In this document: positions 3,281 through 24,042 of the stretch, piece by piece | Position numbering within the stretch: the stretch's first letter is position 1 | Layout of the letters: every line of letters begins with the position of its first letter | From: a virus | Reading direction: 5' to 3' (one strand) | Length of the DNA stretch: 24,042 nucleotides | IMG/VR virus record: IMGVR_UViG_3300038701_001557 | Coordinates: 1-24,042 of that record | Translations under genes and position numbers: made by a program | Notes under the pieces: model-generated | Told to the model about the DNA's origin: nothing | Database searches by the model: none | What the model saw: the letters and a program-made list of their open reading frames with translations, nothing else

Positions 3281-3914
3281 CGACATCAAAATCACCGGGA
3301 CGAACCAGGACGTTACCCTGCACCACCTGCTCGTCGCACGATGGGCAGTCCTCGGTCAGACGGCGAACGGTACGTGGGTTGGACCAATCGAGAGTCACGT
3401 GGAGTCTCTTGATCCGAGTCACCCTGTGGTCCCTGCTTGGGGCCAACTGCTGGCGTTCATGGCGATCGTCGATCAGTGGGCTTACACCTCACGAGATAAC
3501 AACATTGCGTCGGTCGTTGAGTATCTCATTCCGCAGGTGGCTGCCGCCTCTCCTTACCCTCACGTCACTCAAGAGTCTGTCCGGGCAGATATTGAGTCTG
3601 TAACGGGTGGTCGCCAGATCCCACGAGCGGACTACACTGAAGCCGAGATCCAGGAAGAGTATGATGCCCTGGAAGCTGAAGCCGCAAACGCCGCGAGATT
3701 GGCCGAACGCGAGACCATCCTGGCCGGCGTACCTCAGCATTATGAGGACCAAATCACAGCCCTTCGAGCCCAGTTCGACGCTGACGTGGCTGTTATTGTC
3801 GGGCACCAGAACAACGCTGCTGCCAGCATGGCTGACACCCAATCCCTCACGAACGAAGAACTGCAGACCCGAGCCGACCAGGTTATCACCTCTGCTGACG
3901 GAGTTGTTGCATAG
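3180..3914 (+). CDS. uncharacterised phage protein upstream of the LamG gene
   Basis: The 244-aa protein is unassigned. The N-terminal ~130 residues are a compact-looking domain rich in Ala, Val and His. Residues about 148-240 are strongly helical and rich in Glu, Ala and Gln, with coiled-coil character. The start at 3180 is supported by AAAGGGA seven to eight bases upstream, even though it makes a 101-nt overlap with the preceding gene. Its TAG overlaps the GTG start of the LamG gene (TAGTG), which suggests coupled translation and possibly a joint role, such as an adaptor or chaperone for that appendage. That role is inferred from position only. Confidence 0.65.
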   Translation: MSQLAKDLIVQGHAEQTPAADLAAALNANVLHHNDIKITGTNQDVTLHHLLVARWAVLGQTANGTWVGPIESHVESLDPSHPVVPAWGQLLAFMAIVDQWAYTSRDNNIASVVEYLIPQVAAASPYPHVTQESVRADIESVTGGRQIPRADYTEAEIQEEYDALEAEAANAARLAERETILAGVPQHYEDQITALRAQFDADVAVIVGHQNNAAASMADTQSLTNEELQTRADQVITSADGVVA

Positions 3915-6900
3915 TGGCAGCCATTCGCCCCCATCAGAAAACCCGCCTTCACCTGCGAGATTCCGCCACCGTGGATTTCGGGCCGGAAGGGCAGGCGCTG
4001 ACCAATAACGGCGTGACGGTTGTGGATGACGTGTTCACCTTCCCGAGCGGTGGAGAGATCCGACTCGGCACCAACACAACGTTTACCGACTCTTACACCG
4101 TGTCGGGTTGGGTGAAGCCGGTTGCATCAGGAAGCCACATTCTGCTGTTTTCTCGTGCAGACGCTTCTATTGGAACCTCGCTGCGGCCATCGGATATAGA
4201 GGTTTACGTCCAAGCGACAAACATGAACATTACGGTAGTTCACAACCGCAACGGTTCTGTTCAGGTTGAGCAAACCGCGAACAATGTAGCGGTCCCTGGC
4301 GAGTGGATGCACGTTGCGGTAGTGTTTGACGCTAACGACAGCACAAACCTTAGAATCTACAAAAACGCAACCCTCATAGACTCCGCGGCGTCCATGGTAA
4401 CACCGGGCAGTGTGGGGGATGTTTCTACGGTGGGACGTTGGCCTGACTACACGGGGGCTACTGGAGGCGACATCGCTGATTTGCGCGTGAATGAATACGC
4501 GATGACCGCTGGCGAAGTGTTCGACCTGTACAACGAAGGACGCGGCTATGATCTGCCCGAACGTCGCCAATTGCCGGACACAGTCGTTCACTTGCTGGAT
4601 GGCCAAACCGACGCAGGTGTGTATGGAGAAGAGATCAGCCTGGACGAAGTCACCTATGCCAATGGTGCCTACACATTCTCCGGAACAACCCCACACATTG
4701 ACTTCGGCCAGACAACTGTTCTTAGTGAAGCCGATGGGTTTTCTTTCGCCGGGTTCTTCAAACCCGATGCCGTCGCCACACGCCAGTTCCTGTGGTGCCA
4801 CGGTACGGTCACCTATGTTGAGCTCAACGGCAGCACCGCACTTCGGTACAAAGCTTCTGACAACACCCTCCGATTCATAAACCGCACATTTGCGGCTGAC
4901 ACAGTTTATCATGTCGCCCTGGTTGTGAAGGGTAGTACAGCCACTCTGTACATTGATGGTGTCGAGGAAGGTACGTTCGGTGTTAATGGGTCTTCTACGT
5001 TCTCGGTCTCACAGATCAGCGCGGCGAATGCAACTTTTGATTACCAGGGTGACATGTGGGATTGCCGAGTGTTTGACCGGGAGATCTCGGCTGAGGAAGT
5101 GGTCAACCTGTACCGGAATGGCCTGCCTTCCATCCGACCCGCAGAGGTAATCAAGCTGGACCCTGCTTTGTACTCTGGCAGTGGTGACTTGATTGATCGA
5201 TCGGGGAATGGCAACAACGTGACTTTGCCCAGCGGTTACTCGGTAACCGGGGACGTGATTGATTCCGATGGAACAGCCGATGGACCGGACCTGGGGTTTG
5301 ATCTTGACAGTGATTTTACCCTGTCTGCCTGGGTACGAACTACAGACTCAGATTGCGTGTTTCTGTATGACACAGGCACCCGGTTTGGTTTCTGCTGGCA
5401 AGATGGTAGTGCATCCAGCACATCCCAGAATATCACCTCAGGGCAAAACTACGTCGATGGTGTGGCTATCGCCGACAACCGTGACACACTACACGCGGCA
5501 GTAGCAGATGGTGAGTGGCATCATATCGCGTTGACCGGGACATTCTCCACCACATGGGGTATCAAACTGTGCCACTACTCGGCAGCTACACAGTTTCGTT
5601 TGGATGGTGAGATCGACAAGCTCGCTTTCTATAGTGAGATTCTGACGGCTGACCAGATTGCCATGTTGGCCGCGAATCGAGAATTCCCGGACTTCTACCA
5701 CGCACCCTTCGGCACGCTCGGCGGGGAAGAAACCTGCATCCAACCCGAACGTAACAGTGGAGCTCTCTTCAACGACCTCTCCCCTGACGCGACCGGCGAA
5801 GGCACTCCATCCTTGTCTGACGCAGAAATCGTTGACGGCAAAATCGAGTTCGACGGTACCTCTGACATGGTGTCCTTGTCGGACCTCGAACTGGGTAGTT
5901 CGGACTCCGTGACATTGTCCATGTGGGTGACCCGTGATACCGGCAACTGCACGTTGTTCTCACGTGCGTCTGGTGGTGGGGCCTACTATTGGGGTTTGGG
6001 TCAGACAAGTGCATCTGCCTCATCGACGGGTTTTTCAAGTATGGGCCAGTATTTTGATGGTGTGAATCAAGGCTCCAGCACACTCACACGTCAGGATATC
6101 ATCGATCTGCTGCCTGAAGGTGAAAGAGTCCATGTTTGTTTCATAGGTGATACAAGTACAAACCTCGGAACAGGTTTTCAGATTGGCCGATACCAGGCTC
6201 TTACATCACTCACCCTGAATGGCCGGATTGAAGATGTTCGGGTGTTCAAGCGTCGGCTGACTGCTGAAGAAGTCGCGTTTCTGTACAACGACGGCACACC
6301 CGGTGTGGAAGTACCCAACACACGGGACAGTAAACTCGCTGTCCTTCCTTCTTATGACACGGCATCGGATGGCAGCACTTCCAACGTTATCGACTACAGC
6401 GGAAACACGGGTGGCAGCGGGCAGCCAGATTTGTCGGACCCACCCACGTGGACGCCCGACACGGGCGAAAGCGGGCGAGCTAGCTTAGTGTTTGTCGACA
6501 GTGAGACGGAGTACATCGAAAGTTCCGAAAAGCCGATTCAGGGTAACGCAACGCAATTTAGCGTGTTTTTCTGGATGAAACCGACAGACGAAAGCACGCA
6601 ACGTTCCATCTTTACCCAGCATGGGAGCAACGGGAATCGTTCGCTTAATCTGTACCTGAGTACCACCGGCCAGATCGTTTTGCAGACATCAGCCAATGGA
6701 TCGGCACTAACTAGCCATATCACTACGACGCTTTACGACCAGGTCGCAGAGTGGGTACCGATCTGCGTGACGTGGGACGCTGACGCGGACGAAGCGGCAG
6801 TCTGGTCCAATGGTGTTCGTGATGAAACGTTTTCGGGGTTAGCGGCATCGCTTCACGATACGGCGTCACCGGCACGGATTGGATTAAACGGCGTCGGCAG

Positions 6901-7060
6901 TGCTGGGTTCGATGGGTCGCTTGACGATATCGCAATTTATCAGCGAGTCTTGACACCCGCCGAAATCGCCCGCTTCTCCGAACGCCGGAACATCTTCGGT
7001 GAAGCGTACACCGCCCCCACCCCCGGTTCTGGTGGTTTAATACCTATCATCTTGTTTTAG
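3914..7060 (+). CDS. five-domain LamG/concanavalin-like appendage protein
   Basis: The 1048-aa protein is built of about five tandem LamG-like (concanavalin-fold) units, roughly residues 20-212, 222-405, 410-592, 605-795 and 800-1025. Each unit closes with the family's recurring end pattern: D-x-R-V-F-x-R-x-L/I-x-A-E-E-V, then LYxxG. Examples are VFDREISAEEV (386-396) and VFKRRLTAEEV (777-787). Other marks are F-S-V/T-x-x-W-x-K/R-P near the start and W-x-H-V-A mid-domain in most units. LamG domains bind glycans or surface proteins, so a receptor-binding or decorating fibre is likely. The start is a GTG overlapping the previous TAG. The C-terminus is short and hydrophobic (GLIPIILF). Confidence 0.82.
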   Translation: MAAIRPHQKTRLHLRDSATVDFGPEGQALTNNGVTVVDDVFTFPSGGEIRLGTNTTFTDSYTVSGWVKPVASGSHILLFSRADASIGTSLRPSDIEVYVQATNMNITVVHNRNGSVQVEQTANNVAVPGEWMHVAVVFDANDSTNLRIYKNATLIDSAASMVTPGSVGDVSTVGRWPDYTGATGGDIADLRVNEYAMTAGEVFDLYNEGRGYDLPERRQLPDTVVHLLDGQTDAGVYGEEISLDEVTYANGAYTFSGTTPHIDFGQTTVLSEADGFSFAGFFKPDAVATRQFLWCHGTVTYVELNGSTALRYKASDNTLRFINRTFAADTVYHVALVVKGSTATLYIDGVEEGTFGVNGSSTFSVSQISAANATFDYQGDMWDCRVFDREISAEEVVNLYRNGLPSIRPAEVIKLDPALYSGSGDLIDRSGNGNNVTLPSGYSVTGDVIDSDGTADGPDLGFDLDSDFTLSAWVRTTDSDCVFLYDTGTRFGFCWQDGSASSTSQNITSGQNYVDGVAIADNRDTLHAAVADGEWHHIALTGTFSTTWGIKLCHYSAATQFRLDGEIDKLAFYSEILTADQIAMLAANREFPDFYHAPFGTLGGEETCIQPERNSGALFNDLSPDATGEGTPSLSDAEIVDGKIEFDGTSDMVSLSDLELGSSDSVTLSMWVTRDTGNCTLFSRASGGGAYYWGLGQTSASASSTGFSSMGQYFDGVNQGSSTLTRQDIIDLLPEGERVHVCFIGDTSTNLGTGFQIGRYQALTSLTLNGRIEDVRVFKRRLTAEEVAFLYNDGTPGVEVPNTRDSKLAVLPSYDTASDGSTSNVIDYSGNTGGSGQPDLSDPPTWTPDTGESGRASLVFVDSETEYIESSEKPIQGNATQFSVFFWMKPTDESTQRSIFTQHGSNGNRSLNLYLSTTGQIVLQTSANGSALTSHITTTLYDQVAEWVPICVTWDADADEAAVWSNGVRDETFSGLAASLHDTASPARIGLNGVGSAGFDGSLDDIAIYQRVLTPAEIARFSERRNIFGEAYTAPTPGSGGLIPIILF

Positions 7061-7068
7061 GATATACA

Positions 7069-8112
7069 ATGGCAAACATTTACAGCGATACAACTAATCC
7101 CTGGGTGGTGTTCTGGGTAGGTGACTCCAGCAACGCTCCAGTCACCGGACTCACCGCTTCTGATTTCTCGTCTACCGTGTTGGTCCGGGACAACCTGGCC
7201 GACACGGCTCTGACGTTTACAGACGCGTCAGGACCTACCGACTGGGCTGCAGGTAAGCTCTATGAGGTTGGTGGTGGGTACTATAAGGTGGGGGTGGCTA
7301 CGGCCAGCATTTCCAGTTTCTCCGGCAATGCATCTATCTCGGCCACTTACGCCAGTGGTACGGTGTTTGGGATTTCCAACTTCGTCCAATCCCCCGAACG
7401 TGGAACTGACTCAGCCGCGACCGCTGCCGACCTGGCAACACTTGACGGTAAGGTCGACACGATCGACGGTATCGTCGACAACATCCTGGTTGATACCAGT
7501 ACCACCCTGGACGGCAAGCTGGACACCATTGACGGGATCGTCGACGACATCCTGGAAGACACGGGAACTACGCTGCCCAACACCTTGTCCTCCATGGATG
7601 GCAAGCTGGACACGATCGACGGGGTTGTCGATGACATCTTAGAAGACACGGGAACCACCCTGCCAGGCACCCTCTCCACTATCAGTGGAAAGGTCGACGT
7701 GGTTGATGGCATCGTGGATGCGATCCTGGTTGACACCGGCACCACCATCCCCGCCGAACTGTCTGACATCGAATCAAAGGTTGACACGATTGATGGCATC
7801 GTGGATGCGATCCTGGTCGACACAGGGACTACGCTGCCTGACCTGATCAGCACCGTGGACACTGTTGTGGATGGTATCGCCTCCAACATGACCACCGTTC
7901 TCTCCAACCAGGCAGACATTGAGAGCAAGGTCGACACGCTCGACACGGTGGTTGACAACCTGACCTCAAATCTTGCAACTCTGGATGCCGTGGTAGACAA
8001 CGTGTATGTAGAGGTGCAGAAGATCCCACGATCCGGGCTCACCTACCGCTACACCCAGGTGGCCTCTAACACTGGCAGCCAGTATGCAGACGTGAGTATC
8101 GGAGCCGCATAA
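7069..8112 (+). CDS. fibre protein with 29-residue coiled-coil repeats
   Basis: The 347-aa protein has a globular N-terminal domain (1-110) with alternating beta-like segments, a repeat region (about 120-310) and a short C-terminal end. The repeats have the form K-V/L-D-T-I-D-G-I-V-D-x-I-L-x-D-T-G-T-T-L-P. Repeat Lys residues fall at 128, 150, 179, 208 and 237, so units are 29 residues except the first, which is seven shorter. Valine, Ile and Leu spacing fits a trimeric coiled-coil stalk, as in many phage tail fibres. SD-like AGGA precedes the ATG at 7069. It lies between the LamG gene and small appendage genes, consistent with a fibre or its stalk. Confidence 0.75.
   Translation: MANIYSDTTNPWVVFWVGDSSNAPVTGLTASDFSSTVLVRDNLADTALTFTDASGPTDWAAGKLYEVGGGYYKVGVATASISSFSGNASISATYASGTVFGISNFVQSPERGTDSAATAADLATLDGKVDTIDGIVDNILVDTSTTLDGKLDTIDGIVDDILEDTGTTLPNTLSSMDGKLDTIDGVVDDILEDTGTTLPGTLSTISGKVDVVDGIVDAILVDTGTTIPAELSDIESKVDTIDGIVDAILVDTGTTLPDLISTVDTVVDGIASNMTTVLSNQADIESKVDTLDTVVDNLTSNLATLDAVVDNVYVEVQKIPRSGLTYRYTQVASNTGSQYADVSIGAA
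7450..7863 (+). repeat. in-frame 87-bp tandem repeats
   Basis: Repeat starts fall at 7450, 7516, 7603, 7690 and 7777. The units are 87 bp (29 codons), except the first, which is 66 bp and lacks seven codons, one heptad. Copies at 7690 and 7777 share long near-identical stretches, as do those at 7516 and 7603, indicating recent duplication. Repeats always preserve frame and heptad register. Confidence 0.8.
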
Positions 8113-8846: not shown

Positions 8847-10951
8847 TGGTCGATAAGCCTGATCGTTCGGAGAGATTAGCCCGCCAACTCCGATACCAGG
8901 CACGCAAGAGTGAGCAGGCGGCTTCGGTACCCGGAATCCCGCCAGTGAAGAACCCGGAACGGCGAGAGGCGTGTCGCAACGACCTCTCGCTTTTCCTCCG
9001 AACGTACTTCCCTCACAGCACGGGGCTCAAGCCCTTCAGTAAGGCCCATGAAGAAGCGATTATTCGCATGCAGATGGCCATCCTGGAGGGAGGTTCTGTC
9101 GTCTTGACCTGCTTTCCCCGAGGCTTTGGCAAGACAACCATTTCAGAAAACACAGCGATCTGGGCAGCACTCTATGGCCATCGCAAGTTCGTTCCAATCA
9201 TCGGGGCGGACAAAGGTGCCTCGGTCGACAACATCGCATCACTCAAATTCGAGTTGACAGAGAATGACTTGCTGGAAGAAGACTTCCCGGAAGTCGTTAT
9301 GCCATTTAAGCACCTGGACAACAAATCACAGCGGTGTGCCACACAGAAGATCAACGGCGAACTGTCCTACGTTCGGTGGTCCGCCGACGAACTGGGCTTC
9401 GCCTGGGTCAAAGACTCGAATGGCGAGTTTCTGCCAAACTCTGGAGCTCTATTCCGCTGCCTGGGTATCACGGGTCGAATCCGAGGTATGTCGGTGAAGA
9501 TGCCGAGCGGTGCCAAGCAACGCCCAGACTTCTTTATCCTGGACGACCCACAGACTGACGAATCCGCAATGAGCCCTGCCCAATGTGAGAAACGCATGTC
9601 TGTCTACCAGAAATCTATCCTCCGTCTCGGCGGTCACCAGAAGCTGCTGTCCGGCATTATCAATGCCACGGTGATTGAGCCAGAGGATATGGTTGACCAG
9701 CTGCTGAGCCAGGAGAAGCATCCTGAAGTCGAGGGCGTGCGTATCCCAATGCTGTCTTCCATGTCGGACAATCACGAGAAGATGTGGATGGATGTCTACG
9801 CTGAGATCCGACGAACGTACAACCCAGAAGACCCGAGGGACCGGCGACGTGCGATCAACGATGCCAATGACTACTACCGACAAAATCAGAGTGAGATGGA
9901 CAAAGGTGCCGCCGCCACCTGGGAACACTGCTTTGCATCAGCGGATGGTGAGATTTCTGCAATTCACCATGCCTATAACATCCTCATTGATGATGGCCCT
10001 GTGGTATTCGCTTCAGAGTGCCAGAACGAGCCTATCTCCCGGCTACCGGCAGGACTGGACTTTCTCTCTGCAGCCGAGATTAACACAACGCGTGTGGGAC
10101 GCCATACGTTACTTCCCGACAGTGTGGAAACACTTTCATTCCATATTGATGTTCAGAAGAAGGCTCTGTACTACACGGTTGTGGGCTTCTCTGACAAATT
10201 TGATGTGTTCCCCATTCGATACGGAATGTTCCCGGAACAGCCGAATGGGAAGCTGACATATCAACGTCTGCGGAACACGCTGGCGAAGAAGTACCGGGAC
10301 ATGTCCGACGAACGTCAGATCTCCGAGGCAGTCAATGAACTATGCTGTCGTTTGATGGCCGAGCGTTTCGAGCGGGAAGATGGTATCCGCCTGAAGATTG
10401 ACTGCGGCCTGGTGGACGGGGGTTATCAGACCGATGCCGTCCACACGGGTGTCAAAGAGTCAAGATTTGACAACGTATATGTCGCCTTCGGTCGTGGTAT
10501 CAAGGCAGCAGATACGCCGATGCTGCAGCTGGCCCGCAAGCCTGGCGAGCGTCGGAGTAAAGACCCTTATATCCCCTGGCGACTACTCCGTGATCCAAAC
10601 CGCCGCAACACCAGATACGCCTTGTTCTGTGCGAACAGCGTCAAGACTTTCCTCCATCGCCGCATCCGAACGATTCAGGGTGAGGCGGGGTCCTTCCTTC
10701 TGCCGGAAGGGGACCACCTGGAATATGCTCAGCATCTGAGCGGTTCTGAGTTTCCGACTGAAACCGAAGGGCCGTATGGCCGTGTCATTGAGTGGGCAAT
10801 GAAGCCCGGCAACCCTGATAACCACCTGTTTGATACCACCGTGGGGGCGATTGTCGCCGCCAGCATCTCTGGAAAACTCGTGTTTGGTGATCCGACCGCA
10901 CGTGTGTCACGCCCGACCTCCCGAAAAAAGAAAGTCCAGTACCTTGACTAA
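8846..10951 (+). CDS. terL: terminase large subunit
   Basis: The 701-aa product is the DNA-packaging ATPase/nuclease that docks at the portal. A Walker-A-like loop is at residues 89-98 (CFPRGFGKTT). The Walker B strand is at about 229-234 (FFILDD), followed by PQTDE. A F-x-x-E-x-Q-N-x-P motif at 389-396 (FASECQNEP) marks the end of the ATPase part. In the C-terminal RNase-H-like nuclease, D435 in FHIDVQ and the Asp residues in KIDCGLVDGGYQTDA (517-531) are candidate metal ligands. Its length is slightly above the common 450-650. It overlaps the small upstream ORF by one base. No TerS homologue was recognised next to it. Confidence 0.9.
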   Translation: MVDKPDRSERLARQLRYQARKSEQAASVPGIPPVKNPERREACRNDLSLFLRTYFPHSTGLKPFSKAHEEAIIRMQMAILEGGSVVLTCFPRGFGKTTISENTAIWAALYGHRKFVPIIGADKGASVDNIASLKFELTENDLLEEDFPEVVMPFKHLDNKSQRCATQKINGELSYVRWSADELGFAWVKDSNGEFLPNSGALFRCLGITGRIRGMSVKMPSGAKQRPDFFILDDPQTDESAMSPAQCEKRMSVYQKSILRLGGHQKLLSGIINATVIEPEDMVDQLLSQEKHPEVEGVRIPMLSSMSDNHEKMWMDVYAEIRRTYNPEDPRDRRRAINDANDYYRQNQSEMDKGAAATWEHCFASADGEISAIHHAYNILIDDGPVVFASECQNEPISRLPAGLDFLSAAEINTTRVGRHTLLPDSVETLSFHIDVQKKALYYTVVGFSDKFDVFPIRYGMFPEQPNGKLTYQRLRNTLAKKYRDMSDERQISEAVNELCCRLMAERFEREDGIRLKIDCGLVDGGYQTDAVHTGVKESRFDNVYVAFGRGIKAADTPMLQLARKPGERRSKDPYIPWRLLRDPNRRNTRYALFCANSVKTFLHRRIRTIQGEAGSFLLPEGDHLEYAQHLSGSEFPTETEGPYGRVIEWAMKPGNPDNHLFDTTVGAIVAASISGKLVFGDPTARVSRPTSRKKKVQYLD

Positions 10952-11234
10952 GAAAAAAGCAACACCGAAAAAGACCACCCCAAAAACCACTCCAGCTGCC
11001 CAGAAGCAGAAGGAGAATCCGGTGGTAGCTACCTCGATCGCAGCCTGCCCAAAGTGTGGTTGCACTGAACGTACAAAGAAGCAGAACGTCCGCAAGCGGG
11101 ACATCGTGGGCAAGACCCGTGACGGTATCCCATTTACCCAGGTTGTCTGGTCAACAGTGACCTGCAAGCAGTGCCCACAGCGGTACTCTTTGCAGGAATT
11201 TTTGACTCCCTATCGCGGGGGCGATACCAAGTAG
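10944..11234 (+). CDS. zinc-ribbon protein with Lys/Pro/Thr-rich tail
   Basis: From TTG at 10944 the product is 96 aa: a basic, low-complexity N-terminus (KKKATPKKTTPKTTP), then a compact domain with two Cys pairs, C-P-K-C-G-C and C-K-Q-C about 40 residues apart, typical of a zinc ribbon. A GTG at 11022 with AGGAG six to seven bases upstream is an alternative start, giving the 70-aa zinc-ribbon domain alone. I favour the longer form because otherwise a 70-bp gap with protein-like composition would be left. It lies between terL and the gpW-like gene, where lambda has no counterpart; a packaging or DNA-binding accessory is a guess. The second copy of the GGGG-loop hairpin is inside its 3' end. 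Confidence 0.65.
   Translation: MTKKKATPKKTTPKTTPAAQKQKENPVVATSIAACPKCGCTERTKKQNVRKRDIVGKTRDGIPFTQVVWSTVTCKQCPQRYSLQEFLTPYRGGDTK
11205..11226. repeat. GGGG-loop hairpin, copy 2
   Basis: TATCGC and GCGATA (11211-11226) form six perfect pairs around GGGG. The segment matches 65-86 at 21 of 22 positions. Here it is inside the last codons of the zinc-ribbon gene (reading P-Y-R-G-G-D), eight bases before the stop codon. Copy 1 falls in the same frame relative to a nearby stop, if its flanking open frame is translated. Confidence 0.6.
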
Positions 11235-11273
11235 AGTTCACCCGTGTAACCCTTGACTATATTGGAGCGTGAA

Positions 11274-11495
11274 ATGGAAAGTATTTCTCAAAAAGAAGCT
11301 GATTTGGCCAATCTTAACCGCATGATCCGGGCAGGGATCACGACGGTTGTCGTCGGTGGCCAGACCACGGTGTTTGCCAGCATCAAAGACATGCGTTCGG
11401 TGGCCCGTGAGCTTGAAGCAGATATTGCACGCTGCAAGGGTCTTGCACCACAACGACCACGCGTCTCGTCTATCAACCTCAGTCGAGGCGTATAA
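11274..11495 (+). CDS. gpW-like head-tail joining protein
   Basis: The 73-aa product is similar in size and pattern to lambda gpW, which plugs the portal after packaging. A polar N-terminal helix (ADLANLNRMIRAG) is followed by a beta hairpin (TTVVVGGQTTVFA), a second helix (KDMRSVARELEADIARC) and a basic C-terminal tail. The location is also diagnostic: lambda order is A (terminase), W, B (portal), exactly as here. I chose ATG 11274 because GGAG lies six bases upstream; the further-upstream TTG has no comparable site. The stop overlaps the portal start (TAATG). Confidence 0.78.
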   Translation: MESISQKEADLANLNRMIRAGITTVVVGGQTTVFASIKDMRSVARELEADIARCKGLAPQRPRVSSINLSRGV

Positions 11496-12922
11496 TGTCG
11501 AAGTTGAAGAAGATCACCCCAAAAACGAAGAAAGCGTCTTTCCGCGTGAGCGGATATGATGCCATCGACTCCCAGGGCAAGCGAAAGCCTGCCCAGGCGG
11601 TCATCAAGCATGAAGACACTGCCCTTCGAGGTCGTGACCGTCGCTCCCTGCAGAGCGTCGGCACAGACCTCTACCGGAACTTCTCGATGGTCTCCTGGGC
11701 CGTCCGGAAGCATCTGGACTATAACACACAGTTCAACTTCCAGGTCCGAACGGACAACGAAGATCTGAACAACCAAATCGAAGCCTTGATGAAAGACTGG
11801 TCGCGTCCACATAACTGTGATGCTTCCGGTCGTTTGTCGTTGGCACAGATGATTCGTCTGGCTGAGATGCGGCACATCCTGGACGGCGACTTTTTCTTCC
11901 TGAAGCGTCAGCAGGGTTTTCTGAACTCTATCGAAGCTGACCTGATCCGTAACAAGTCTGAGTCTTCAACTGAAGAACAGGAAGGCTGGTACAACGGCAT
12001 CAAGGTCAACAAAGACGGCCGACCCCAGGCATATCACCTCCACAAGCGTGACCCCTACGGCAACTACGAGCCTCTGCGGGAGATCCCTGCACGCAACATG
12101 ATCCACCTGTGTCACTTCGATCGCTTCGATCAGGTACGCGGGATTAGCCCTCTGGCCGCAGCCTACAACACCTTCCGCGACGTGTATGAAGGTGTGGACT
12201 ACGCCCTGGCCAAGATGAAAGTCGAACAGCTGTTCGCCCTGGTCATCCACTCTGGCGGCATGTCCGGCACGGGTGACTACACGCGAAACGGCGACGGAAC
12301 CTACGACGTTGACTTTGGCCGTGGTCCAGTGAAGCTGGAACTGGACAATGACGACGACGCCAAGTTCCTCACGAGCGACAATCCCGGAAGCAATACCCAG
12401 GAGTTCATTCAGCTGGTTCTGTCCATGGCCATCAAGGCCCTCGACCTGCCGGTGAACTTTGTCGATGAATCCCGAACGAATTTCTTCGGGTCCAGAGCCG
12501 CATGGATGCTGTACGATCGGTCATGCGTGGCCAAACGCGGAGTTGTCTTAGAGATGCTTCGCCGCATTACAGTGTGGAAAATTCGTCAATGGATCATCTC
12601 GAATGATCTGACGTTGCCAAGCGGCATGACAATTCTGGACATTGACTTTGAATGGGTTCACGTCGGTATGCCCTGGTGGGACCCCGCCAAGGAAATCGCC
12701 GGTGATGTCCTGGCTATTCAGGCCGGACTCGACAACCCCTACCGCATCTGTAAGGAACGCGGCCGTGGTGAGTTTGAAGAGAACCTGCGTCTGATTGCTC
12801 AGGCCCAGGAGAAAGCTGAAGAGTTGGGTGTCACACTGAACTTCGCTGTTCCTGAAGGGACAGAAGACAACGAACAGGACACACAGGAAAACGCAGAATA
12901 CGAGGACGGCGATGACGATTGA
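11495..12922 (+). CDS. portal protein (lambda gpB-like)
   Basis: The 475-aa product forms the dodecameric DNA channel at the capsid vertex. Features of the lambda-type portal family are visible: an N-terminal region with R-x-L-x-x-x-G-T-D-L-Y-R-N-F, a WAVRKHLDY helix, an LDGDFFFLKR strand, and the highly typical FDQVRGISPLAAAYNTFRD segment near residue 210. This is followed by the wing/stem region (FFGSRAAWMLYDR) and an acidic C-terminus (EYEDGDDD). Its length is near the family's usual ~500. Neighbours fit: gpW-like upstream, protease downstream overlapping by 11 nt. The first residues are very basic. Confidence 0.9.
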   Translation: MSKLKKITPKTKKASFRVSGYDAIDSQGKRKPAQAVIKHEDTALRGRDRRSLQSVGTDLYRNFSMVSWAVRKHLDYNTQFNFQVRTDNEDLNNQIEALMKDWSRPHNCDASGRLSLAQMIRLAEMRHILDGDFFFLKRQQGFLNSIEADLIRNKSESSTEEQEGWYNGIKVNKDGRPQAYHLHKRDPYGNYEPLREIPARNMIHLCHFDRFDQVRGISPLAAAYNTFRDVYEGVDYALAKMKVEQLFALVIHSGGMSGTGDYTRNGDGTYDVDFGRGPVKLELDNDDDAKFLTSDNPGSNTQEFIQLVLSMAIKALDLPVNFVDESRTNFFGSRAAWMLYDRSCVAKRGVVLEMLRRITVWKIRQWIISNDLTLPSGMTILDIDFEWVHVGMPWWDPAKEIAGDVLAIQAGLDNPYRICKERGRGEFEENLRLIAQAQEKAEELGVTLNFAVPEGTEDNEQDTQENAEYEDGDDD

Positions 12923-17132: not shown

Positions 17133-17360
17133 ATGGTGGGGACCGTCGATGTTGATGGTCTCCTTGATTCAATGACTCCGGAACAGTTCAACGAGTGGGC
17201 TGCGTACGACATAGTCGAACCCATCGTCCACTCCGAACGTTTACAAGCCTACCTCGTTCAGATGCTCTCCAAGTGGATGGGCCATGAGGTAGACAGCGAA
17301 GTCATCACCCCCTGGCTCGAACCTCCGAAGTTCGATCCGGCTTCTCTAAGGAAACAGTAA
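17133..17360 (+). CDS. T-domain ORF of the gpGT tail chaperone
   Basis: Read alone from ATG 17133 this is a 75-aa ORF, but it is more likely translated only as the C-terminal part of gpGT through the -1 shift at 17082-17088. The frame is open upstream to 17073, and the extra residues (LLAFRLARMVGTVDVDG) run naturally into LLDSMTPEQFNEWAAYDIVEP, the pattern of T domains, where M-S/T-x-x-Q/E-F-x-E-W-x-A-Y-x-x-x-E-P is common. No good ribosome site precedes 17133. The T part binds the tape measure or tail tube in lambda. The stop overlaps the tape measure start. Confidence 0.75.
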   Translation: MVGTVDVDGLLDSMTPEQFNEWAAYDIVEPIVHSERLQAYLVQMLSKWMGHEVDSEVITPWLEPPKFDPASLRKQ

Positions 17361-19177
17361 TGGCCAGTCTCGGTGACTTGGTAGTTGGCATGCGAGCCGA
17401 CATCCAGAATTTCGAGCGACGGATGACCAAGGTGGAACGTCGCCTTGGTCGTCTCGAAGGCAAGTTCCGAAAAGTCGGATCGGCCGTCGCGAGCGTAACC
17501 GGAAAGATCAAGGGCCTTGTGGCTGCTTACGCAGGCATAAGGTTCTTTGGCCATGCTTTCTCCGAGTTCGCTCAGTTCGACGATGCCATGCGTATGGTAG
17601 GTGCCCGGTCTCAGGCAACTCAGAATGACTTGCGAAAGTTGACTGAGATTGCTGAGTACCTTGGCCGCACAACCTCTCACACCGCGACAGAGATCGCGGA
17701 GATGATGAACATCCAGGCTCAGGCGGGCTTCAAGCCGAATCAGATCGGCAACCTCATCGAACCGACCGCGAACCTGAAACGTGCCACTGGCTCCGACGCC
17801 GCGACGGCCTCAGAAGTTATCGCGTCGACTCTTCGCGTGTTCCAGATGGAAACCAAGGAAGCCACTCGTATCGCTGATGCCTTCACATCGGCTACGATCG
17901 AATCGATGGCTTCGCTGACAGACCTGGCAGGCGGTATGTCCTATGTGGGTGAGAATGTCACCTCGCTGGGCGTCTCGCTGGAAGAAACGCTCGGGTTTAT
18001 GGCTGTTCTCCACAATCGAAACATCAAGGGAGAGCGGGCAGGTACAGCCCTCCGCCGAACGTTCTCCACGTTGGCCGCTGAGGCCGATCGCCTGTCAGAC
18101 GTGTTCAACACCCCACTGAAAGAAGATGGCTTCTTCGTGGGGGTGCCAGAGGCTCTGCGGCGTATCAATGCTGCCACCAGTAACCTTGAAGGTGCGGAGA
18201 AGCTTCGCGTATTCAAGGAAGCCTTCCAGCTGCTCGGTATGGAAGCTGCTCTCGTAATGACCGACAGCGTCGATCAGGTCGACGAACTGGTAGCCAAGAT
18301 GGGCAAAGCTGGTACGACGGCCAAAGACGTAGCCGAATCAATGGATGCGGGCTTCGGTGGTGTGCTGCGGCGGTTTAAGTCTGCCTTCTCCGGGTTCATG
18401 ATCCGGCTGGGTAGACTTATGGCGGCCGTAGTCACTCCCGTCATCGAACGTATCACCAAGATGCTGAATCACATGGCTTCAGATGAGGTAATGGGCTCTA
18501 TCGCTCAGCACCTGGAGAAAGCCATGATTCTGGTGGGTAACATCATCAGCAGCATCACAGATGGCTCTGCCTGGGAGTACATGGCTCTGACTCTGGAGAA
18601 TATCTTCTCCGACATCCTGTACACGCTGGGCAGCAATCTGGAAATGATCCTGAAGGACTCAGCCCGTATGGTCCGGGACATCATGACCGGCAAGTACGAC
18701 GACCAGAAGGACTACTTCAAGGCCAGCCGTATCATGGCGGGTGCGGGTCTGATGACCTCAGACACCACCATGGAAAACCAGCCACGCCTCCATCAACTGG
18801 AAGCGATCATGGAGAAGAATGGTGCGGCCACAGCTGAGGCCATCCGCAACATGGGTCTGGGTGACATGTTCAACCCGGCCAGCAAGCTGTGGGAAGTCCT
18901 CGGCAAAGAGGTATTCCCACAGGGCCCTGGCGGCATGGAACTGATGGACGACGCAGCCCCTGCTGCTCAGGCACCCTCTCACGCTGGTGTGGCTATGCTG
19001 CGTGGCAGCATGGAGGCATGGCAGGCTCAGTTCAGCCAGGCCAAGCAGGCTGAGAAGATCGCCAAAGATCAGCTGGCGGTACAGAAGGACATCAACAAGA
19101 ACCTGGAAGACTTCCCGCAGCAGGTCTCTATTTCGTTCGGGAAGGTTCTCGCTGACAACGCTGTAGGAATCAACTGA
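17360..19177 (+). CDS. tail tape measure protein
   Basis: The 605-aa protein sets tail length and sits inside the tail tube. The N-terminus has a coiled coil (about 10-40, DIQNFERRMTKVERRLGRL). Residues about 70-260 match the TP901-type tape measure core: FAQFDDAMRMVGARSQAT, LTEIAEYLGRTTSHTATEI, ANLKRATGSDAATASEVI, SYVGENVTSLGVSLEETL and NIKGERAGTALRRTFSTLA. After that come amphipathic and hydrophobic helices (about 345-375) and a C-terminal Gln/Lys-rich helix. At about 1.5 angstrom per residue the tail would be near 90 nm. It is shorter than many tape measures but complete. SD-like AAGGAAA precedes the ATG. Confidence 0.88.
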   Translation: MASLGDLVVGMRADIQNFERRMTKVERRLGRLEGKFRKVGSAVASVTGKIKGLVAAYAGIRFFGHAFSEFAQFDDAMRMVGARSQATQNDLRKLTEIAEYLGRTTSHTATEIAEMMNIQAQAGFKPNQIGNLIEPTANLKRATGSDAATASEVIASTLRVFQMETKEATRIADAFTSATIESMASLTDLAGGMSYVGENVTSLGVSLEETLGFMAVLHNRNIKGERAGTALRRTFSTLAAEADRLSDVFNTPLKEDGFFVGVPEALRRINAATSNLEGAEKLRVFKEAFQLLGMEAALVMTDSVDQVDELVAKMGKAGTTAKDVAESMDAGFGGVLRRFKSAFSGFMIRLGRLMAAVVTPVIERITKMLNHMASDEVMGSIAQHLEKAMILVGNIISSITDGSAWEYMALTLENIFSDILYTLGSNLEMILKDSARMVRDIMTGKYDDQKDYFKASRIMAGAGLMTSDTTMENQPRLHQLEAIMEKNGAATAEAIRNMGLGDMFNPASKLWEVLGKEVFPQGPGGMELMDDAAPAAQAPSHAGVAMLRGSMEAWQAQFSQAKQAEKIAKDQLAVQKDINKNLEDFPQQVSISFGKVLADNAVGIN

Positions 19178-20058
19178 TGACAATCTCTTTCACAAGTGGT
19201 AATGGTATCTCTGGTCGCGAGGCGGAAAACAACGCGGGCCAGAGAAGCTTCACGCATACCTACAAGCTGAAGACTACGGACCCCAGCACTGAAGGTGAAT
19301 GGCAGGTCGGCTCTTTCCCCGGCCTGCCGGTCATCGGTGATGTCCACCCGGATGACCCGAACGCCTATGTCCAGCGTATCCGGGTTGTCTGCAGTGACCC
19401 ACCCAACGGCTGGACCGTTGTCGTCTACTATTCCGACGAACGTTCATTTGATCAGAACAACCCCAACACGCCAAACAACTCCGGCCCTGACGCCGATGAG
19501 GTGTTGGTAAGTATCTCGTCGGAGAACTATGAGGTTCTGATCGACAAGGACAAAGACGACGAGGGGCTGGTAAACTCTGCTGGCGATCCGTTCTACACAC
19601 CACCAACCACTCAGCTGACTCGCCTGAACATCAATGTCTCATTCAACGCCACGACGGTTCCGGGGGCCTTGCTGACTCGCCTCGACCACGTGAACTCTAT
19701 CGAGTGTACCGTAGGCAACATCGTGTTCCCCATGCGAACGTTGAAGTATGGTAACCTTCAGGTAGGCAACCGTAAGATTCGAAACGGCATCGCCTACTAC
19801 CCGGTCTCGTACCAGTTCAAGCACAACCCCAACCGCTGGGACATTGAGGTATTGGACGCCGGTTTTCGCGAGATCAACGCTCGTGGGGTGGCGGTGGCAA
19901 TTGTGGATGAAGACGAGCAGCCAATCAGCCAGCCTCACCCACTCGATCAGTTCGGTAGAGCCTTGGCCACACCCATTGACCCGGCCGACTACAACTACAA
20001 GACCTTCCGGTACTTCCAGGAAATCGACTTCACAGACATGCCTGGAGTCTCGCAGTAA
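19177..20058 (+). CDS. putative tail-tip protein after the tape measure
   Basis: The 293-aa protein is unassigned. It is beta-rich, with a first domain (about 20-100) that includes FPGLPVIGDVHPDD and WTVVVYYSDE, and a second (about 145-290) with a strand-rich segment and an Asp/Pro-rich C-terminus (IDPADYNYKTFRYFQEIDF). Its place immediately after the tape measure is where the distal tail or tail-tip hub gene normally lies, which supports a tail-tip role without fixing a family. The start overlaps the preceding stop (TGATG). Confidence 0.68.
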   Translation: MTISFTSGNGISGREAENNAGQRSFTHTYKLKTTDPSTEGEWQVGSFPGLPVIGDVHPDDPNAYVQRIRVVCSDPPNGWTVVVYYSDERSFDQNNPNTPNNSGPDADEVLVSISSENYEVLIDKDKDDEGLVNSAGDPFYTPPTTQLTRLNINVSFNATTVPGALLTRLDHVNSIECTVGNIVFPMRTLKYGNLQVGNRKIRNGIAYYPVSYQFKHNPNRWDIEVLDAGFREINARGVAVAIVDEDEQPISQPHPLDQFGRALATPIDPADYNYKTFRYFQEIDFTDMPGVSQ

Positions 20059-20774
20059 TGTACACACTTCGACCAGAATTTGCTCAGGCCCTCCAGCAGC
20101 TTGTCCGGGAATTCAACCAGGGCAAGCTGACCAACAAAAAGGGTTTGACGCAGGGCCCCAACGCCAACTGGCGACCAATGCAGCTGGCCCGTACCACCGA
20201 GAACATCGACGCGGCCACGGACGTTGCCACGCCTGGCAGCGGTACGGCTGAGCTGTACATCCCGGACCCTGGCTCTGCGGCTGACATCCACGAGAAGGGG
20301 TACATCGCAGACTCGAAGCCCGAAGACCGTTCGGCGGGTTCATGGGTTTATGTGGCTCGTGAGATCAACGTTACAAACCCGTTCCAGAAGGACATCCCAA
20401 AGGACACCTTCATCATCGTGACCTTCACCCGCGGCCAGTGGGTCCCGGTCAATGGGTCAAGCGACAGCGTGTACATCGAACTGGAGTCAGACCTTGGAGA
20501 ACCATCAACCGGCCTGGAAGCCTCGCCGCCATCCGCCACAGCCACCATCCTGGAATTCAATGAAGTCACTGGCAAGCTGGAAAAGAGTGACACCCAGATC
20601 ACTGTAATCAACCGCGGCCGTGGCCAGTTCTACGTGGAAGGGACTCGCGGGTATCCCAAGACCCTTTCCGGCGAACGTCACTTCTTCCCGATCGAATGTG
20701 ACCCTGGCGAATCATCCAGTTCCGTCTCTACCACAACCAACTCATCACTCACCGTATCGAGTGCATCGCCCTAA
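20058..20774 (+). CDS. tail-region protein with Ser/Thr-rich C-terminus
   Basis: The 238-aa protein has a helical N-terminus (LRPEFAQALQQLVREFNQ), a central beta-rich domain (about 60-210) and a Ser/Thr-rich end (about 217-238, ending SSASP). No family is recognised. A similar SSASP ending occurs in the 131-aa protein encoded at 22658. The Ser residues use several different codons, so the tract is maintained as protein sequence and not as a DNA microsatellite. TAATG junctions flank it on both sides. Confidence 0.65.
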   Translation: MYTLRPEFAQALQQLVREFNQGKLTNKKGLTQGPNANWRPMQLARTTENIDAATDVATPGSGTAELYIPDPGSAADIHEKGYIADSKPEDRSAGSWVYVAREINVTNPFQKDIPKDTFIIVTFTRGQWVPVNGSSDSVYIELESDLGEPSTGLEASPPSATATILEFNEVTGKLEKSDTQITVINRGRGQFYVEGTRGYPKTLSGERHFFPIECDPGESSSSVSTTTNSSLTVSSASP

Positions 20775-21589
20775 TGAGTGTCATCATCTCATGCTGCTGC
20801 GACAGGTCCGACCCACCGTCGTCTTCGTCGCCGTCAGACAGTTCATCATCCTTCTCGGATAGCTCCCCGAGCGGAAGCAGTTCCAGCAGCTACAGCGAAT
20901 CGCTGTCAAGCTCGTCTGTGTCCGCGTCCTCGGACAGCCAGTCTGGATATGACTTCTGTGCATGTGACTGTTGCCTCTGGCCCAATACCGTCAAGCTGAC
21001 AATCAGCGAAGCCACCTTCATCAACGATGGCGGCTTCGGTGGTACGCAGCCTGGCCTGGTGACCTTCCCAACTGAGATCATCCTTGACCGAAACCCGAAC
21101 AGCCTGAACTACTCATCGCGTCTGAAGGTCCAGGATGTGGCCGACGATCTGAGCGATGGTGGGTTTGACTTCCCCACAACCATCTGGGGTATGGCACCCG
21201 GTGGTGCATTTGCGGAGGCACAAAGTTGGCCGGGCGGGGCCCCTGGCTCTCGGTTCTATGATGAGACGCTGGCAGGCACACCCGCCGATCACGCATTCAC
21301 AGTAGGATTCAACTCTAACCAGTGTTACTGGTTCTTTACTTCATTTGCCGTTGGCTCTATTTTCCGAAGCTGGATCTCAGGCACTACGGGATTCACCCCT
21401 GCGTTTCCACCGATCGACACGGGTGTAGGTGCGTGGTCCTGCATGGGTGGTGCCACATTTGGTCACTTCTCTCCGAGGATCACAAGTACTAACCCATTCC
21501 GTATTACTCCGTTTCGCGGTGCCTTCACCTGGTGGGAACCATGGGGTGTGGGTACTGAGACCCCGACAGCGACGCTGGAGATCGTATGA
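20774..21589 (+). CDS. Ser-rich, Cys-motif virion-type protein
   Basis: The 271-aa protein has a Cys cluster at the N-terminus (C7-C8-C9), a long Ser-rich tract (about 12-57, interrupted by Asp, Pro, Tyr and Gly), then C-A-C-D-C-C (62-67) and a beta-rich domain to the end with many Phe, Trp and Gly. The combination of a Ser tract, a Cys-pair motif and a following strand starting with W-P-N-T-V-K-L-T-I resembles proteins I associate with planctomycete phage regions, but I cannot name a family. The domain could be a receptor-binding or decoration module. The Ser tract is a candidate O-glycosylation or linker region. Confidence 0.68.
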   Translation: MSVIISCCCDRSDPPSSSSPSDSSSSFSDSSPSGSSSSSYSESLSSSSVSASSDSQSGYDFCACDCCLWPNTVKLTISEATFINDGGFGGTQPGLVTFPTEIILDRNPNSLNYSSRLKVQDVADDLSDGGFDFPTTIWGMAPGGAFAEAQSWPGGAPGSRFYDETLAGTPADHAFTVGFNSNQCYWFFTSFAVGSIFRSWISGTTGFTPAFPPIDTGVGAWSCMGGATFGHFSPRITSTNPFRITPFRGAFTWWEPWGVGTETPTATLEIV

Positions 21590-22665
21590 CAATTCCGCCC
21601 TGTAGATTTCGACGAGCAGTCGATAATGAACTCAACTGGTGCGACCACCCGAACGTTCACGTGGGTGCGGCGTTCCCTGATTCTATGTGTGCGAACTGTG
21701 CCGTAGCTGAAGCCGTTCCAGGCGTTCGTCGCGTGGACTTCTTCAAGGCTACCAACAAGCTGGCCACTACACCCTTCTCCGCTCAGCCAGCACCTAAGCC
21801 TGTTGAGAAAAAGGAGGACTGCAAGCCCTGCCAGAAGAGAAAGAAAAGACGCCGAAAGGTCGCAGCCCAGTTCAAGTCTCACCCACGAACGATTCGCCGT
21901 AGATCCAACGCTGACGGCCAGACCGTTGTGTGGGTTTACTGGGAGGCGGGGGCCCGCACGAACGAACTGCAATACTCCATGGCATCTGTGTTGGAGAACC
22001 TGACGGGGTTCAGCAACCTTGTCATTTGTGGCGACCGTCCGTCATGGTGGAATGGCCCCTTTATCCCCAGCCCACGCGTGACACGCCGCATGACGCAAAG
22101 GTCCTTTGGGTCTGCCCGCTTCCAGAAGTGGTGTGACTCCATTGCCAAGCTGTGGACGATTATCGAGTCGGACCTGGTCACAGAAGATTTCCTGTGGATG
22201 TATGATGACACGTTCATCATGAAGAACTACTCATTCGAGGCAATCTCGAAGCCGGTAGCCCAGGGAACAATCACACGGTCATTGCGGCCGAACAACCGCA
22301 ACATCTGGCGTGAGGTTAAGCGTCGGACGGGTGCAGATCTTCGGGAGCGTGGCCTGCCGGACTGGGACTATTCGACCCACCACCCTGTGACGTACAACAA
22401 ACTGAAGCTGGTTGAAACCATCAACACGTTCGGGTTGCCGCAGAACCCTCGCCTGATCGAGTCCATCTACAGCAATCACCACGTGAAGCACAAGCCAGCC
22501 AGAGCCCTGAACACTTTCCAGTACACCCGGCGAGTCCTGCCGAGCTGGACCCCTCGGGATGTGCCAGTCATCAACGTTGGCCAGTTCAACGACCACATCC
22601 GGACAACCCTGGAAGCCCACATCCCGAACGTAACAAACCGGATCGCGGAGATCTCCAATGGCTGA
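21586..22665 (+). CDS. putative glycosyltransferase with N-terminal Cys motifs
   Basis: The 359-aa protein has a Cys-containing N-terminal segment (C6, C19, and C35-x-x-C38), a basic linker with another C79-x-x-C82 and runs of Lys/Arg (about 74-92), then a catalytic-looking domain (about 112-340). In that domain VVWVYWEAG starts a nucleotide-binding strand and FLWMYDDTFIMKN (202-214) contains the D207-D208 acidic pair expected of a metal/nucleotide-sugar site, similar to the DD motif in Stealth-type and other GT-A enzymes. I assign it as a glycosyltransferase by this motif, with donor and acceptor unknown. Neighbours include Ser-rich proteins and a UDP-GlcNAc 2-epimerase. It starts in an ATGA overlap. 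Confidence 0.65.
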   Translation: MTIPPCRFRRAVDNELNWCDHPNVHVGAAFPDSMCANCAVAEAVPGVRRVDFFKATNKLATTPFSAQPAPKPVEKKEDCKPCQKRKKRRRKVAAQFKSHPRTIRRRSNADGQTVVWVYWEAGARTNELQYSMASVLENLTGFSNLVICGDRPSWWNGPFIPSPRVTRRMTQRSFGSARFQKWCDSIAKLWTIIESDLVTEDFLWMYDDTFIMKNYSFEAISKPVAQGTITRSLRPNNRNIWREVKRRTGADLRERGLPDWDYSTHHPVTYNKLKLVETINTFGLPQNPRLIESIYSNHHVKHKPARALNTFQYTRRVLPSWTPRDVPVINVGQFNDHIRTTLEAHIPNVTNRIAEISNG

Positions 22666-23053
22666 TTACTACACAGTCTATCTCTCCGCAGAATCGGAAG
22701 CAGACCGCGAATCATACTGTGTGTGGTTCGCGCCAACGGAGGCAGAAGCCAACGTTATACGAGACTTCTTCAACGACCAGTTTGACACCAACACCTACAC
22801 ATCCTATCTGATCTCAGACGCGGACGTGACTGGCAGCGGAACCCTGGAAGACGTAGACGCAACCAACCTGCCTGGCTGGAAGTACCGGGCGATTGGGAAT
22901 GAACGGTATGACGCGGCCAATCGTGTATTGGTCGAAGGTTTGTTTGAGGATTCCAGCAGTTCAAGCAGTGGCAGTAGCAGCAGCTTTGACCTGACATCTT
23001 CTGCCGGTTCTAGTTTGTTCACCAGCAGTGCCTCACCACCCCCGCCGTTTTAG
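22658..23053 (+). CDS. small protein with Ser-rich C-terminal tail
   Basis: The 131-aa protein has a folded N-terminal part (1-95, mixed alpha/beta, including EAEANVIRDFFND) and a Ser-rich tail (about 99-126) that ends SSASPPPPF. No family is recognised. The tail resembles that of the protein at 20058, so the two may share a modification or an assembly partner. Its start overlaps the glycosyltransferase stop by eight bases. An inverted repeat follows the stop. Confidence 0.62.
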   Translation: MADYYTVYLSAESEADRESYCVWFAPTEAEANVIRDFFNDQFDTNTYTSYLISDADVTGSGTLEDVDATNLPGWKYRAIGNERYDAANRVLVEGLFEDSSSSSSGSSSSFDLTSSAGSSLFTSSASPPPPF

Positions 23054-23080
23054 TAAAGCATTTGCCCGATTCCTTTACTA
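23051..23080. repeat. inverted repeat between stop codon and the wecB start
   Basis: TAGTAAAG (23051-23058, including the stop codon) pairs perfectly with CTTTACTA (23073-23080) across a 14-nt loop. The stem is AT-rich and no T-run follows, so an intrinsic terminator is unlikely. It borders the ribosome site of the next gene (AGGA at 23081-23084), so it could modulate its translation or mark a processing site. Confidence 0.45.
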
Positions 23081-23091
23081 AGGATTGCCCA

Positions 23092-24042
23092 ATGAAACTT
23101 ATGATCATCCTGGGGACTCGCCCCGAAGCAATCAAACTCGCACCCGTCATCGCTGCCGCCAACGCGGATGAGCGGTTTGACGTTCGTGTGGTGTTCACCG
23201 GACAGCACGCGGACCTGGTTCCGCCTGTCTTCGAAGAGTTCAAAGTCACTTATCACCACGACCTGCGGTGCATGGCCGAGGGACAGTCCCTGTCGGCCCT
23301 CACGTCGCGTATCTGCATGGCCCTCGACCCGGTTGTCGCGGAACACAAACCGGACGTTGTGATGGCTCAGGGGGACACCACGTCGACCCTCTGTGCTGGC
23401 ATGGTCTCATTCTACAACCGTATTCCCTTCGTCCACGTGGAGGCAGGGTTGCGAACCCCGGACATCGATTCACCCTTCCCTGAAGAACTCAACCGCCGGA
23501 TCTGCAGCCTTGCCGCCACGCTCCATTGCTGTCCCACCAAGGATGCCATGTACAACCTGCGTGGCGAGAACACCGTCCTAACGGGCAACACGGTCGTAGA
23601 CGCCGTCCGGATGGTGGACCTGATTGAATCGCGTCGGAGCTACATCATTGCGACCTGCCACCGCAGAGAGAACCGTGGTGCGGCATTTTGGCGTATCCTG
23701 ACGGCCCTGAAGGCGATTGACCACTGGCTGGATTATCCGGTCATCCTCATCAAACACCCGTCCAACCCGGACGTAAAAAGCATCATGACCTCAGAGCCCT
23801 TGCCTTATCACCAGATGATCCGGGCAATGGCCAACTCCCACATGGTTATCACCGATTCGGGGGGTTTGACGGAGGAAGCGGTGTCACTGGGCATCCCTGT
23901 CCTCATCACCCGCGATTCAACCGAACGTTCAGAAGCCGTACAGGCAGGATCGGCCCTGCTCGTCGGCACACAGACCAGAAGCATCGTTAAAGCCGCCCAG
24001 GACGTTCTGAGTGGCGATCTGACACTAAACACGACACTCAGC
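23092..24042 (+). CDS. wecB: UDP-N-acetylglucosamine 2-epimerase, 3' end outside window
   Basis: The visible 317 codons are open to the window edge. The product should convert UDP-GlcNAc to UDP-ManNAc, a precursor for surface polysaccharides. Landmarks: GTRPEAIK (8-15), Asp95 in QGDTTST, Glu117 in VEAGLRT, Glu131 in FPEELNRR, His190 in CHRREN, and SDSGGLTEEA-type signature TDSGGLTEEA (254-263). D95, E117 and E131 fall at the same numbers as in the E. coli enzyme; His190 is about 23 residues earlier than His213, because the segment after GNTVVDAV is shortened. AAGGA lies upstream of the ATG. Phage-encoded copies are known in other contexts; here it may feed the adjacent glycosyltransferase. 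Confidence 0.85.
   Translation, partial: MKLMIILGTRPEAIKLAPVIAAANADERFDVRVVFTGQHADLVPPVFEEFKVTYHHDLRCMAEGQSLSALTSRICMALDPVVAEHKPDVVMAQGDTTSTLCAGMVSFYNRIPFVHVEAGLRTPDIDSPFPEELNRRICSLAATLHCCPTKDAMYNLRGENTVLTGNTVVDAVRMVDLIESRRSYIIATCHRRENRGAAFWRILTALKAIDHWLDYPVILIKHPSNPDVKSIMTSEPLPYHQMIRAMANSHMVITDSGGLTEEAVSLGIPVLITRDSTERSEAVQAGSALLVGTQTRSIVKAAQDVLSGDLTLNTTLS

Follow-up and report, generated by a model that had tools for sequence, protein, structure and literature searches.

What does a tailed phage do with a glycosyltransferase and a UDP-GlcNAc 2-epimerase placed among the genes for its tail tip? The question is raised by the window studied here, the entire IMG/VR record IMGVR_UViG_3300038701_001557 (24,042 bases), in which the gene for the tape measure protein is followed by 19177, 20058, 20774, 21586 and 22658 and, after a short gap, by 23092 (genes are named by their first position; table 1). 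A first-pass annotation had described three of the encoded proteins as Ser-rich, beside the transferase and the epimerase, and had proposed that the phage O-glycosylates its own virion or, alternatively, modifies the host surface; all five open reading frames (ORFs) on which it was built are present as listed in table 1. As judged from the sequence, we slightly favour the view that the window holds the distal-tail module of a Planctomycetota phage with a resident cassette that would sugar-coat the phage's own tail tip.

Pairing of the Ser linker with the transferase

The three highest Ser densities among the 29 window proteins belong to this cassette, with a maximum per 25 residues of 18 in 20774, 15 in 22658 and 10 in 20058. 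When all window proteins were pooled and shuffled 1000 times, the corresponding maximum had a mean of 7.5 and was never above 11; the tracts of 20774 and 22658 are therefore clearly beyond chance, and only for the tail of 20058 does the claim of Ser richness become borderline. The tracts use AGY and TCN codons mixed, so they are not simple (slipped) DNA repeats. The main tract of 20774 (approximately 20816-20953) is flanked by CCC and CxC clusters. The SSASP ending had been singled out in two of the tails and it is indeed shared, but as a common recognition motif it was rejected as weak, shuffled tails having some 5-mer in common in 12.6% and the exact C-terminal 5-mer recurring in 0.8% (a post hoc count).

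The first hints that such a protein is paired with a Stealth-type transferase came from L091/L092, Blastopirellula marina, G423 and G440 (L and G numbers are our own handles), and in a first small test a Ser tract was present in 4/5 with the Stealth-type enzyme versus 5/23 (p 0.026). This was superseded by a larger set drawn from 47 loci, which a scan with a profile of the enzymes had found without reference to Ser. The loci counted belong to the clade nearest the G423 enzyme and have window-syntenic structural genes upstream; a few more distant matches (L352, L361, L365 and below), which lie in other contexts, were left out. Immediately upstream of the enzyme lies an ORF of 205-322 amino acids, which consists of M-L-x-GC(G)CHC, a Ser-rich linker, CxxC and a C-terminal domain. 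The best 25 residues of the linker contain 7-11 Ser in most loci and 22-25 in L357, L358 (the same as G440) and L364. At the 18 non-redundant Stealth loci the values span 7-25, versus 2-7 in the Cys-rich tail-tip ORFs of 19 transferase-less relatives (p 2e-7, or 3e-6 when the controls are instead represented by the most Ser-rich ORF of their zones); the control ORFs were chosen automatically and some are not orthologous. The nearest resolved relatives, L317 and L318 (71% terminase identity), are without Ser linker, transferase and epimerase alike. A four-base start/stop overlap joins the Ser protein to the enzyme in 7 of 16 loci.

In architecture and position the 20774 protein agrees with the proteins encoded just before the enzyme at the 17 other non-redundant loci. 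Profile comparison detected no homology between it and that Ser-linker family (hhalign probability 3.6%), and the model of its C-terminal domain (predicted template-modelling score, pTM, 0.70) had no PDB match below E 0.3. As for the two other Ser-containing proteins, 20058 is homologous to the protein in the same place of L346 (E 2e-5), and 22658 gave no family match above chance in Pfam and phrog profile searches.

A separate observation concerns L139/L140 (B. marina DSM 3645), which looks like the remnant of a tail module. It encodes a pair of Ser-rich proteins, of which one has a poly-Ser stretch of ~190 amino acids; it also carries a Stealth-type enzyme, GT2/GT7, PS_pyruv_trans and CTP_transf_3, and is flanked by transposase-like genes.

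The Stealth-type enzyme

On sequence and predicted structure, the product of 21586 is a compact Stealth-type enzyme of the GT-A glycosyltransferase fold, because the fold match, the profile match and the CR2 matches within its family agree, and this bears out its earlier description as a putative glycosyltransferase. In the AlphaFold model (pTM 0.64) the catalytic core is mostly well predicted and the first 76 residues are not; its top Foldseek matches are CpsY of Mycobacterium tuberculosis (8j2n, E 2.5e-7) and then GNPTAB (7s6n, E 1e-6), and by sequence the family profile matches GNPTAB at E 1e-12 and CpsY at 2e-7. Stealth_CR2 (PF11380) is matched by 8 of the 11 family members (best 8.5e-16), the window enzyme itself remaining below the cut-off (E 0.043), and the Pfam models of CR3 and CR4 match none of the 11. 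The phrog_7999 family to which the enzyme belongs is a phage family without a name. Seven further phage contigs with the same transferase family were found with a DNA pattern around MYDD...HxP and confirmed by phrog_7999; single-protein scans with the transferase, the 20774 protein or the epimerase, as well as a first genome scan, recovered nothing.

The window enzyme has DD at residues 207-208 and HxP at 265-267, and E127, S131, P152, D207, D208, H265 and P267 are invariant in the 11-member alignment. The invariant DD pair aligns with that of GNPTAB, and the counterpart of the metal-site residue D324 of CpsY is kept. On the other hand, CpsY N322 is replaced, Tyr or Met preceding DD in most members, and no invariant Arg corresponding to CpsY R419 follows HxP, the position of R419 being taken from motif order rather than structure superposition. 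In CpsY, R419 is essential and N322 important (PMC10668966), and the stealth family comprises hexose-1-phosphate transferases (PMC5974469). In comparison with CpsY (8j2n) and GNPTAB (7s6n, 9bgg), the phage enzyme shares the GT-A fold and the DD pair and has a putative CR2-like segment, but differs in the lack of CR3/CR4 matches, in the changed donor-site residues and in a catalytic part of ~250 residues.

The epimerase and other nucleotide-sugar genes

The identity of the 23092 product as a UDP-GlcNAc 2-epimerase, proposed in the first-pass annotation, is certain by homology: it scores 259 bits against a curated PF02350 cut-off of 30.6 and matches Escherichia coli WecB (PDB 1f6d) at E 2e-65. 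R10, K15, D95, E117, E131 and H213 of WecB, which we take to be the catalytic residues, are all present, and the product of the reaction would be UDP-ManNAc. The 3' end of the gene is lost at the contig end. The enzyme is a compact version, in which the internal loops of cellular WecB are shortened and several are missing.

A conserved pair of epimerase and Stealth-type enzyme was considered and rejected, being seen in the window only. Other nucleotide-sugar and accessory genes accompany the enzyme elsewhere. In L357 a UDP-galactopyranose mutase (PF03275, E 5e-68; 10745-11857) lies two genes past the Stealth-type enzyme, at the position that the epimerase has in the window; B. marina has CTP_transf_3 and PS_pyruv_trans, and the G423 clade has Rhamno_transf-like and methyltransferase genes. 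In one of 80 viral epimerase loci examined, L063, a Ser-tract protein, a sulfotransferase and GT25 accompany the epimerase in what looks like a set of phage structural genes; in another, L025, the epimerase is found with transferases in a group of head genes. The epimerase 'phages' Yong-DA, MaAM05 and MD-2021a are plasmid- or bacterial-looking sequences and were excluded from the phage evidence. The phage-labelled records ON073792.1 (L002), MW495066.1 (L003) and CAKLQF020000007.1 (L004) look like a plasmid (ParA/ParB, exopolysaccharide genes) or bacterial contigs.

The same slot in other Planctomycetota prophages

Elsewhere in the phylum the same slot is occupied by unrelated transferases, sulfotransferases and nucleotide-sugar enzymes. 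L174 (G404) has a Cys-rich protein, a Cys-rich protein joined with GT1/GT4 and a sulfotransferase-like protein, with no Ser tract; L212 and L231 encode a putative GT-A transferase, read as such from its sequence, with a Cys-rich N-terminus and no Pfam match; L189 has a 675-amino-acid protein with a long Ser tract followed by GT1 and GT2; L197 has a Ser/HINT protein with DUF115-like and GT32 genes; and L213 has a Ser/Thr-rich protein followed by GT2. Functions overlapping with those of the window cassette are found in L174, L189, L197, L212, L213 and B. marina DSM 3645, often with a Cys-rich domain N-terminal to the transferase, but except in B. marina these transferases are unrelated to the Stealth type. 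Approximately half of the prophages have neither Ser tract nor transferase. In a table of 23 prophages, scored by reading ORFs, the Ser tract was not significantly associated with the presence of any transferase (Fisher p 0.34), so the general association is not established; the expected co-occurrence of Ser tract and transferase gene in relatives holds in the narrower case of the Stealth-type enzyme.

Two side observations were made at these loci. Ser/Gly-rich proteins with a HINT/intein-like domain are present at the tail-tip position of L191, L194 and L197, and a Cys-rich domain (CxHRG...CxxC...) is found alone or fused ahead of unrelated transferases in L174, L204, L212, L231 and B. marina L139.

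Proposed role of the cassette and alternatives

The genes 19177, 20058, 20774, 21586 and 22658 are chained by stop/start overlaps (TAATG, TAATGA, ATGA and one overlap of 8 bases), which suggests translational coupling; a promoter and terminator scan of the cassette region gave nothing above chance. No membrane segment was found in any cassette protein (19177-24042). The window holds a phage-encoded transferase together with Ser-rich proteins that, from their position in the operon, are presumably part of the virion. Virion self-glycosylation is probable here and is the best reading: the enzymes would be soluble, expressed in coupling with the acceptor and supplied with a dedicated donor sugar, and the Ser-rich linker would be the acceptor. 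Gene content, enzyme class and the conserved pair are seen in the sequences themselves; we infer the acceptor, the linkage, the sugar and the biological role as follows. Late in infection the epimerase would convert UDP-GlcNAc to UDP-ManNAc, and the transferase, whose translation would be coupled to that of its acceptor, would transfer the sugar in the cytoplasm to Ser hydroxyls in the disordered stretch that separates the two Cys clusters; 20058 and 22658 are perhaps also acceptors through their tails. Once glycosylated, the linker would be exposed on the tail tip and could give protection from proteases or adjust adsorption, and exchange of the transferase among relatives could vary this surface.

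Several observations speak against self-glycosylation. The Ser-versus-Stealth statistics are post hoc and their rows are related; several linkers hold no more than 7-10 Ser per 25 residues; and the epimerase is present in 0 of the 47 Stealth loci. The link between Ser tracts and transferases in general is loose, as seen in the Fisher test above, in the transferases without a Ser tract (L174, L209, L212, L231, L232) and in the Ser tracts without a recognised transferase (L191, L194). The original proposal is partly supported: the pairing of Ser protein and Stealth-type enzyme at 18 loci, and the absence of both from the closest resolved relatives, favour it, while the epimerase stands outside the conserved pair.

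The alternative that survives best, although we consider it unlikely, is that the transferase and UDP-ManNAc change a glycan of the cell surface and exclude other phages, the Ser tracts being unrelated linkers. Phage-borne transferases that modify the host surface are well known, UDP-ManNAc commonly serves as a precursor of surface polysaccharides, several sugar genes, capsule-type ones included, are present in some relatives, and those relatives that have a transferase and lack a Ser tract fit such a role. However, the sugar genes alternate with tail-tip genes and are apparently coupled to them in translation, and the Ser protein is tied to the Stealth-type enzyme. Phage-encoded sugar transfer is common to this cassette and to the gtr-type serotype conversion of temperate phages, but, unlike in gtr systems, no flippase or membrane-anchored polyprenol transferase is encoded among 19177-24042, and the sugar genes are located within the tail operon. 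The lack of these components makes host-surface modification the less likely reading, and it retains some probability because the contig ends inside the cassette.

A second alternative, which we regard as distinctly doubtful, keeps self-modification but changes the chemistry: a CsaA/CsaB-like pair would put ManNAc-1-phosphate from UDP-ManNAc onto the Ser linker of the tail tip, in a Planctomycetota phage lineage that exchanges sugar enzymes. To our knowledge, protein phosphoglycosylation by a Stealth enzyme on Ser-rich proteins is known only from eukaryotes. In its favour, the best structural and profile matches of the transferase are sugar-1-phosphotransferases, and the pair of epimerase and Stealth-type enzyme equals the CsaA epimerase and CsaB polymerase of the meningococcal serogroup A capsule (PMC7501274), where the two likewise adjoin. 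But the CsaA/CsaB system makes a capsule polymer on a lipid acceptor, whereas the window enzyme is compact, is without the key Arg and has a proposed protein acceptor; CpsY R419 and N322 are not conserved in the phage family, the CR3/CR4 models are unmatched, and the epimerase pairing is seen once.

The least likely explanation is that there is no functional link and the slot is a tolerated insertion site for mixed sugar genes beside flexible Ser linkers that come and go, for which the non-significant any-transferase association, the Ser tracts of L191 and L194 and the widely differing transferase families can be cited, but against which Ser content separates loci with and without a Stealth neighbour, and gene order and overlap are conserved. 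Glycosylation of phage DNA was set aside, since the window has no recognisable gene for base modification.

The phage and its host

From 8846 onward Pfam and phrog profile matches outline the structural operon of a tailed phage (table 1).

Table 1. Features of the tail-tip cassette and of the structural operon in the window.
Feature	Position	Strand	Evidence and remarks
Tail-tip protein with Ser-containing C-terminal tail (about 20706-20771)	20058..20774	+	10 Ser/25 amino acids
Cys-rich tail-tip protein, proposed sugar acceptor	20774..21589	+	18 Ser/25 amino acids; position and architecture
Stealth-type GT-A transferase, Cys-containing disordered N-terminus (predicted)	21586..22665	+	phrog_7999 E 1.8e-12; model; profile
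Small protein with C-terminal Ser tract (about 22949-23041)	22658..23053	+	15 Ser/25 amino acids
UDP-GlcNAc 2-epimerase, non-hydrolysing by best matches, 3' end missing	23092..24042	+	PF02350 E 6e-77
Tape measure protein	17360..19177	+	PF10145 E 3e-34; phrog_1533 E 3e-55
Distal-tail-like protein, first gene past tape measure	19177..20058	+	syntenic anchor kept in relatives
Large terminase			PF20454
Portal			PF05136
Capsid			PF20911 (GP7)
Tail chaperone			phrog_344

The assignment to a phage infecting Planctomycetota is strong but not exclusive, the genome scan having covered Planctomycetota; it is made because the terminase has full-length relatives in their genomes (65 of 392, best identity 46%). 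Identity reaches 71% in viral contigs and only ~24% with named phages; terminase relatives from the phage collection were left out as too remote for use, and prepilin matches from the scan that supplied the Planctomycetota genomes were not counted as evidence. The Planctomycetota genomes G404 and G039 are syntenic with the window through 19177, homologues of which occupy the same place in L174, L212, L316, L317, L318 and L240.

Other genes of the window lie upstream of the tail module. A 1048-amino-acid protein with five Laminin_G_3 (concanavalin-like) domains is encoded upstream of the terminase (3914-7060) and is possibly a glycan-binding fibre. A papain-like cysteine protease (1448-2320; PF00112, E 2.8e-4) has a 55% identical counterpart in L240, the 2256-2891 product has a WCAPC thioredoxin-like motif and no Pfam match, in a phage that also has Cys-rich tail-tip proteins, and 7069-8112 encodes a coiled-coil protein built with repeated LDTIDGIVDDILEDTGTTLP units.

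Comparison with known systems and implications

Phage virion glycosylation was known before, as was the combination of an epimerase and a Stealth enzyme in a capsule locus. So far virion glycosylation has been reported for a few mycobacteriophages. Glycosylated virions are described for Che8 and Rita (Freeman et al. 2023, as cited in PMC11256854), and according to that account phage-encoded transferases are likewise thought to act on the phage's own structural proteins, the capsid being the one reported and the genes lying near the 3' end of the genome. The window differs in that the modified proteins would be those of the tail tip, the enzyme is of the Stealth type and coupled to the protein presumed to accept the sugar, and the locus has a nucleotide-sugar enzyme of its own. 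Neither a coupled tail-tip cassette in Planctomycetota phages nor an earlier description of the prophage sugar cassettes was found in the literature searched.

Two aspects give the locus its significance. First, across a phage family a dedicated transferase is linked genetically to the protein that it presumably modifies, in a phylum other than that of the mycobacteriophage hosts; second, the transferases are interchangeable and are accompanied by private nucleotide-sugar enzymes of the UDP-GlcNAc 2-epimerase, UDP-galactopyranose mutase and CMP-sugar type. If self-glycosylation is true, the signature of a Ser linker between Cys clusters, an overlapping start and a Stealth-type transferase would predict self-glycosylated tails in metagenomes, and the small enzyme-acceptor pairs could be tested in E. 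coli without phage or host culture. It would also provide a likely mechanism of surface variation for the phages of Planctomycetota.

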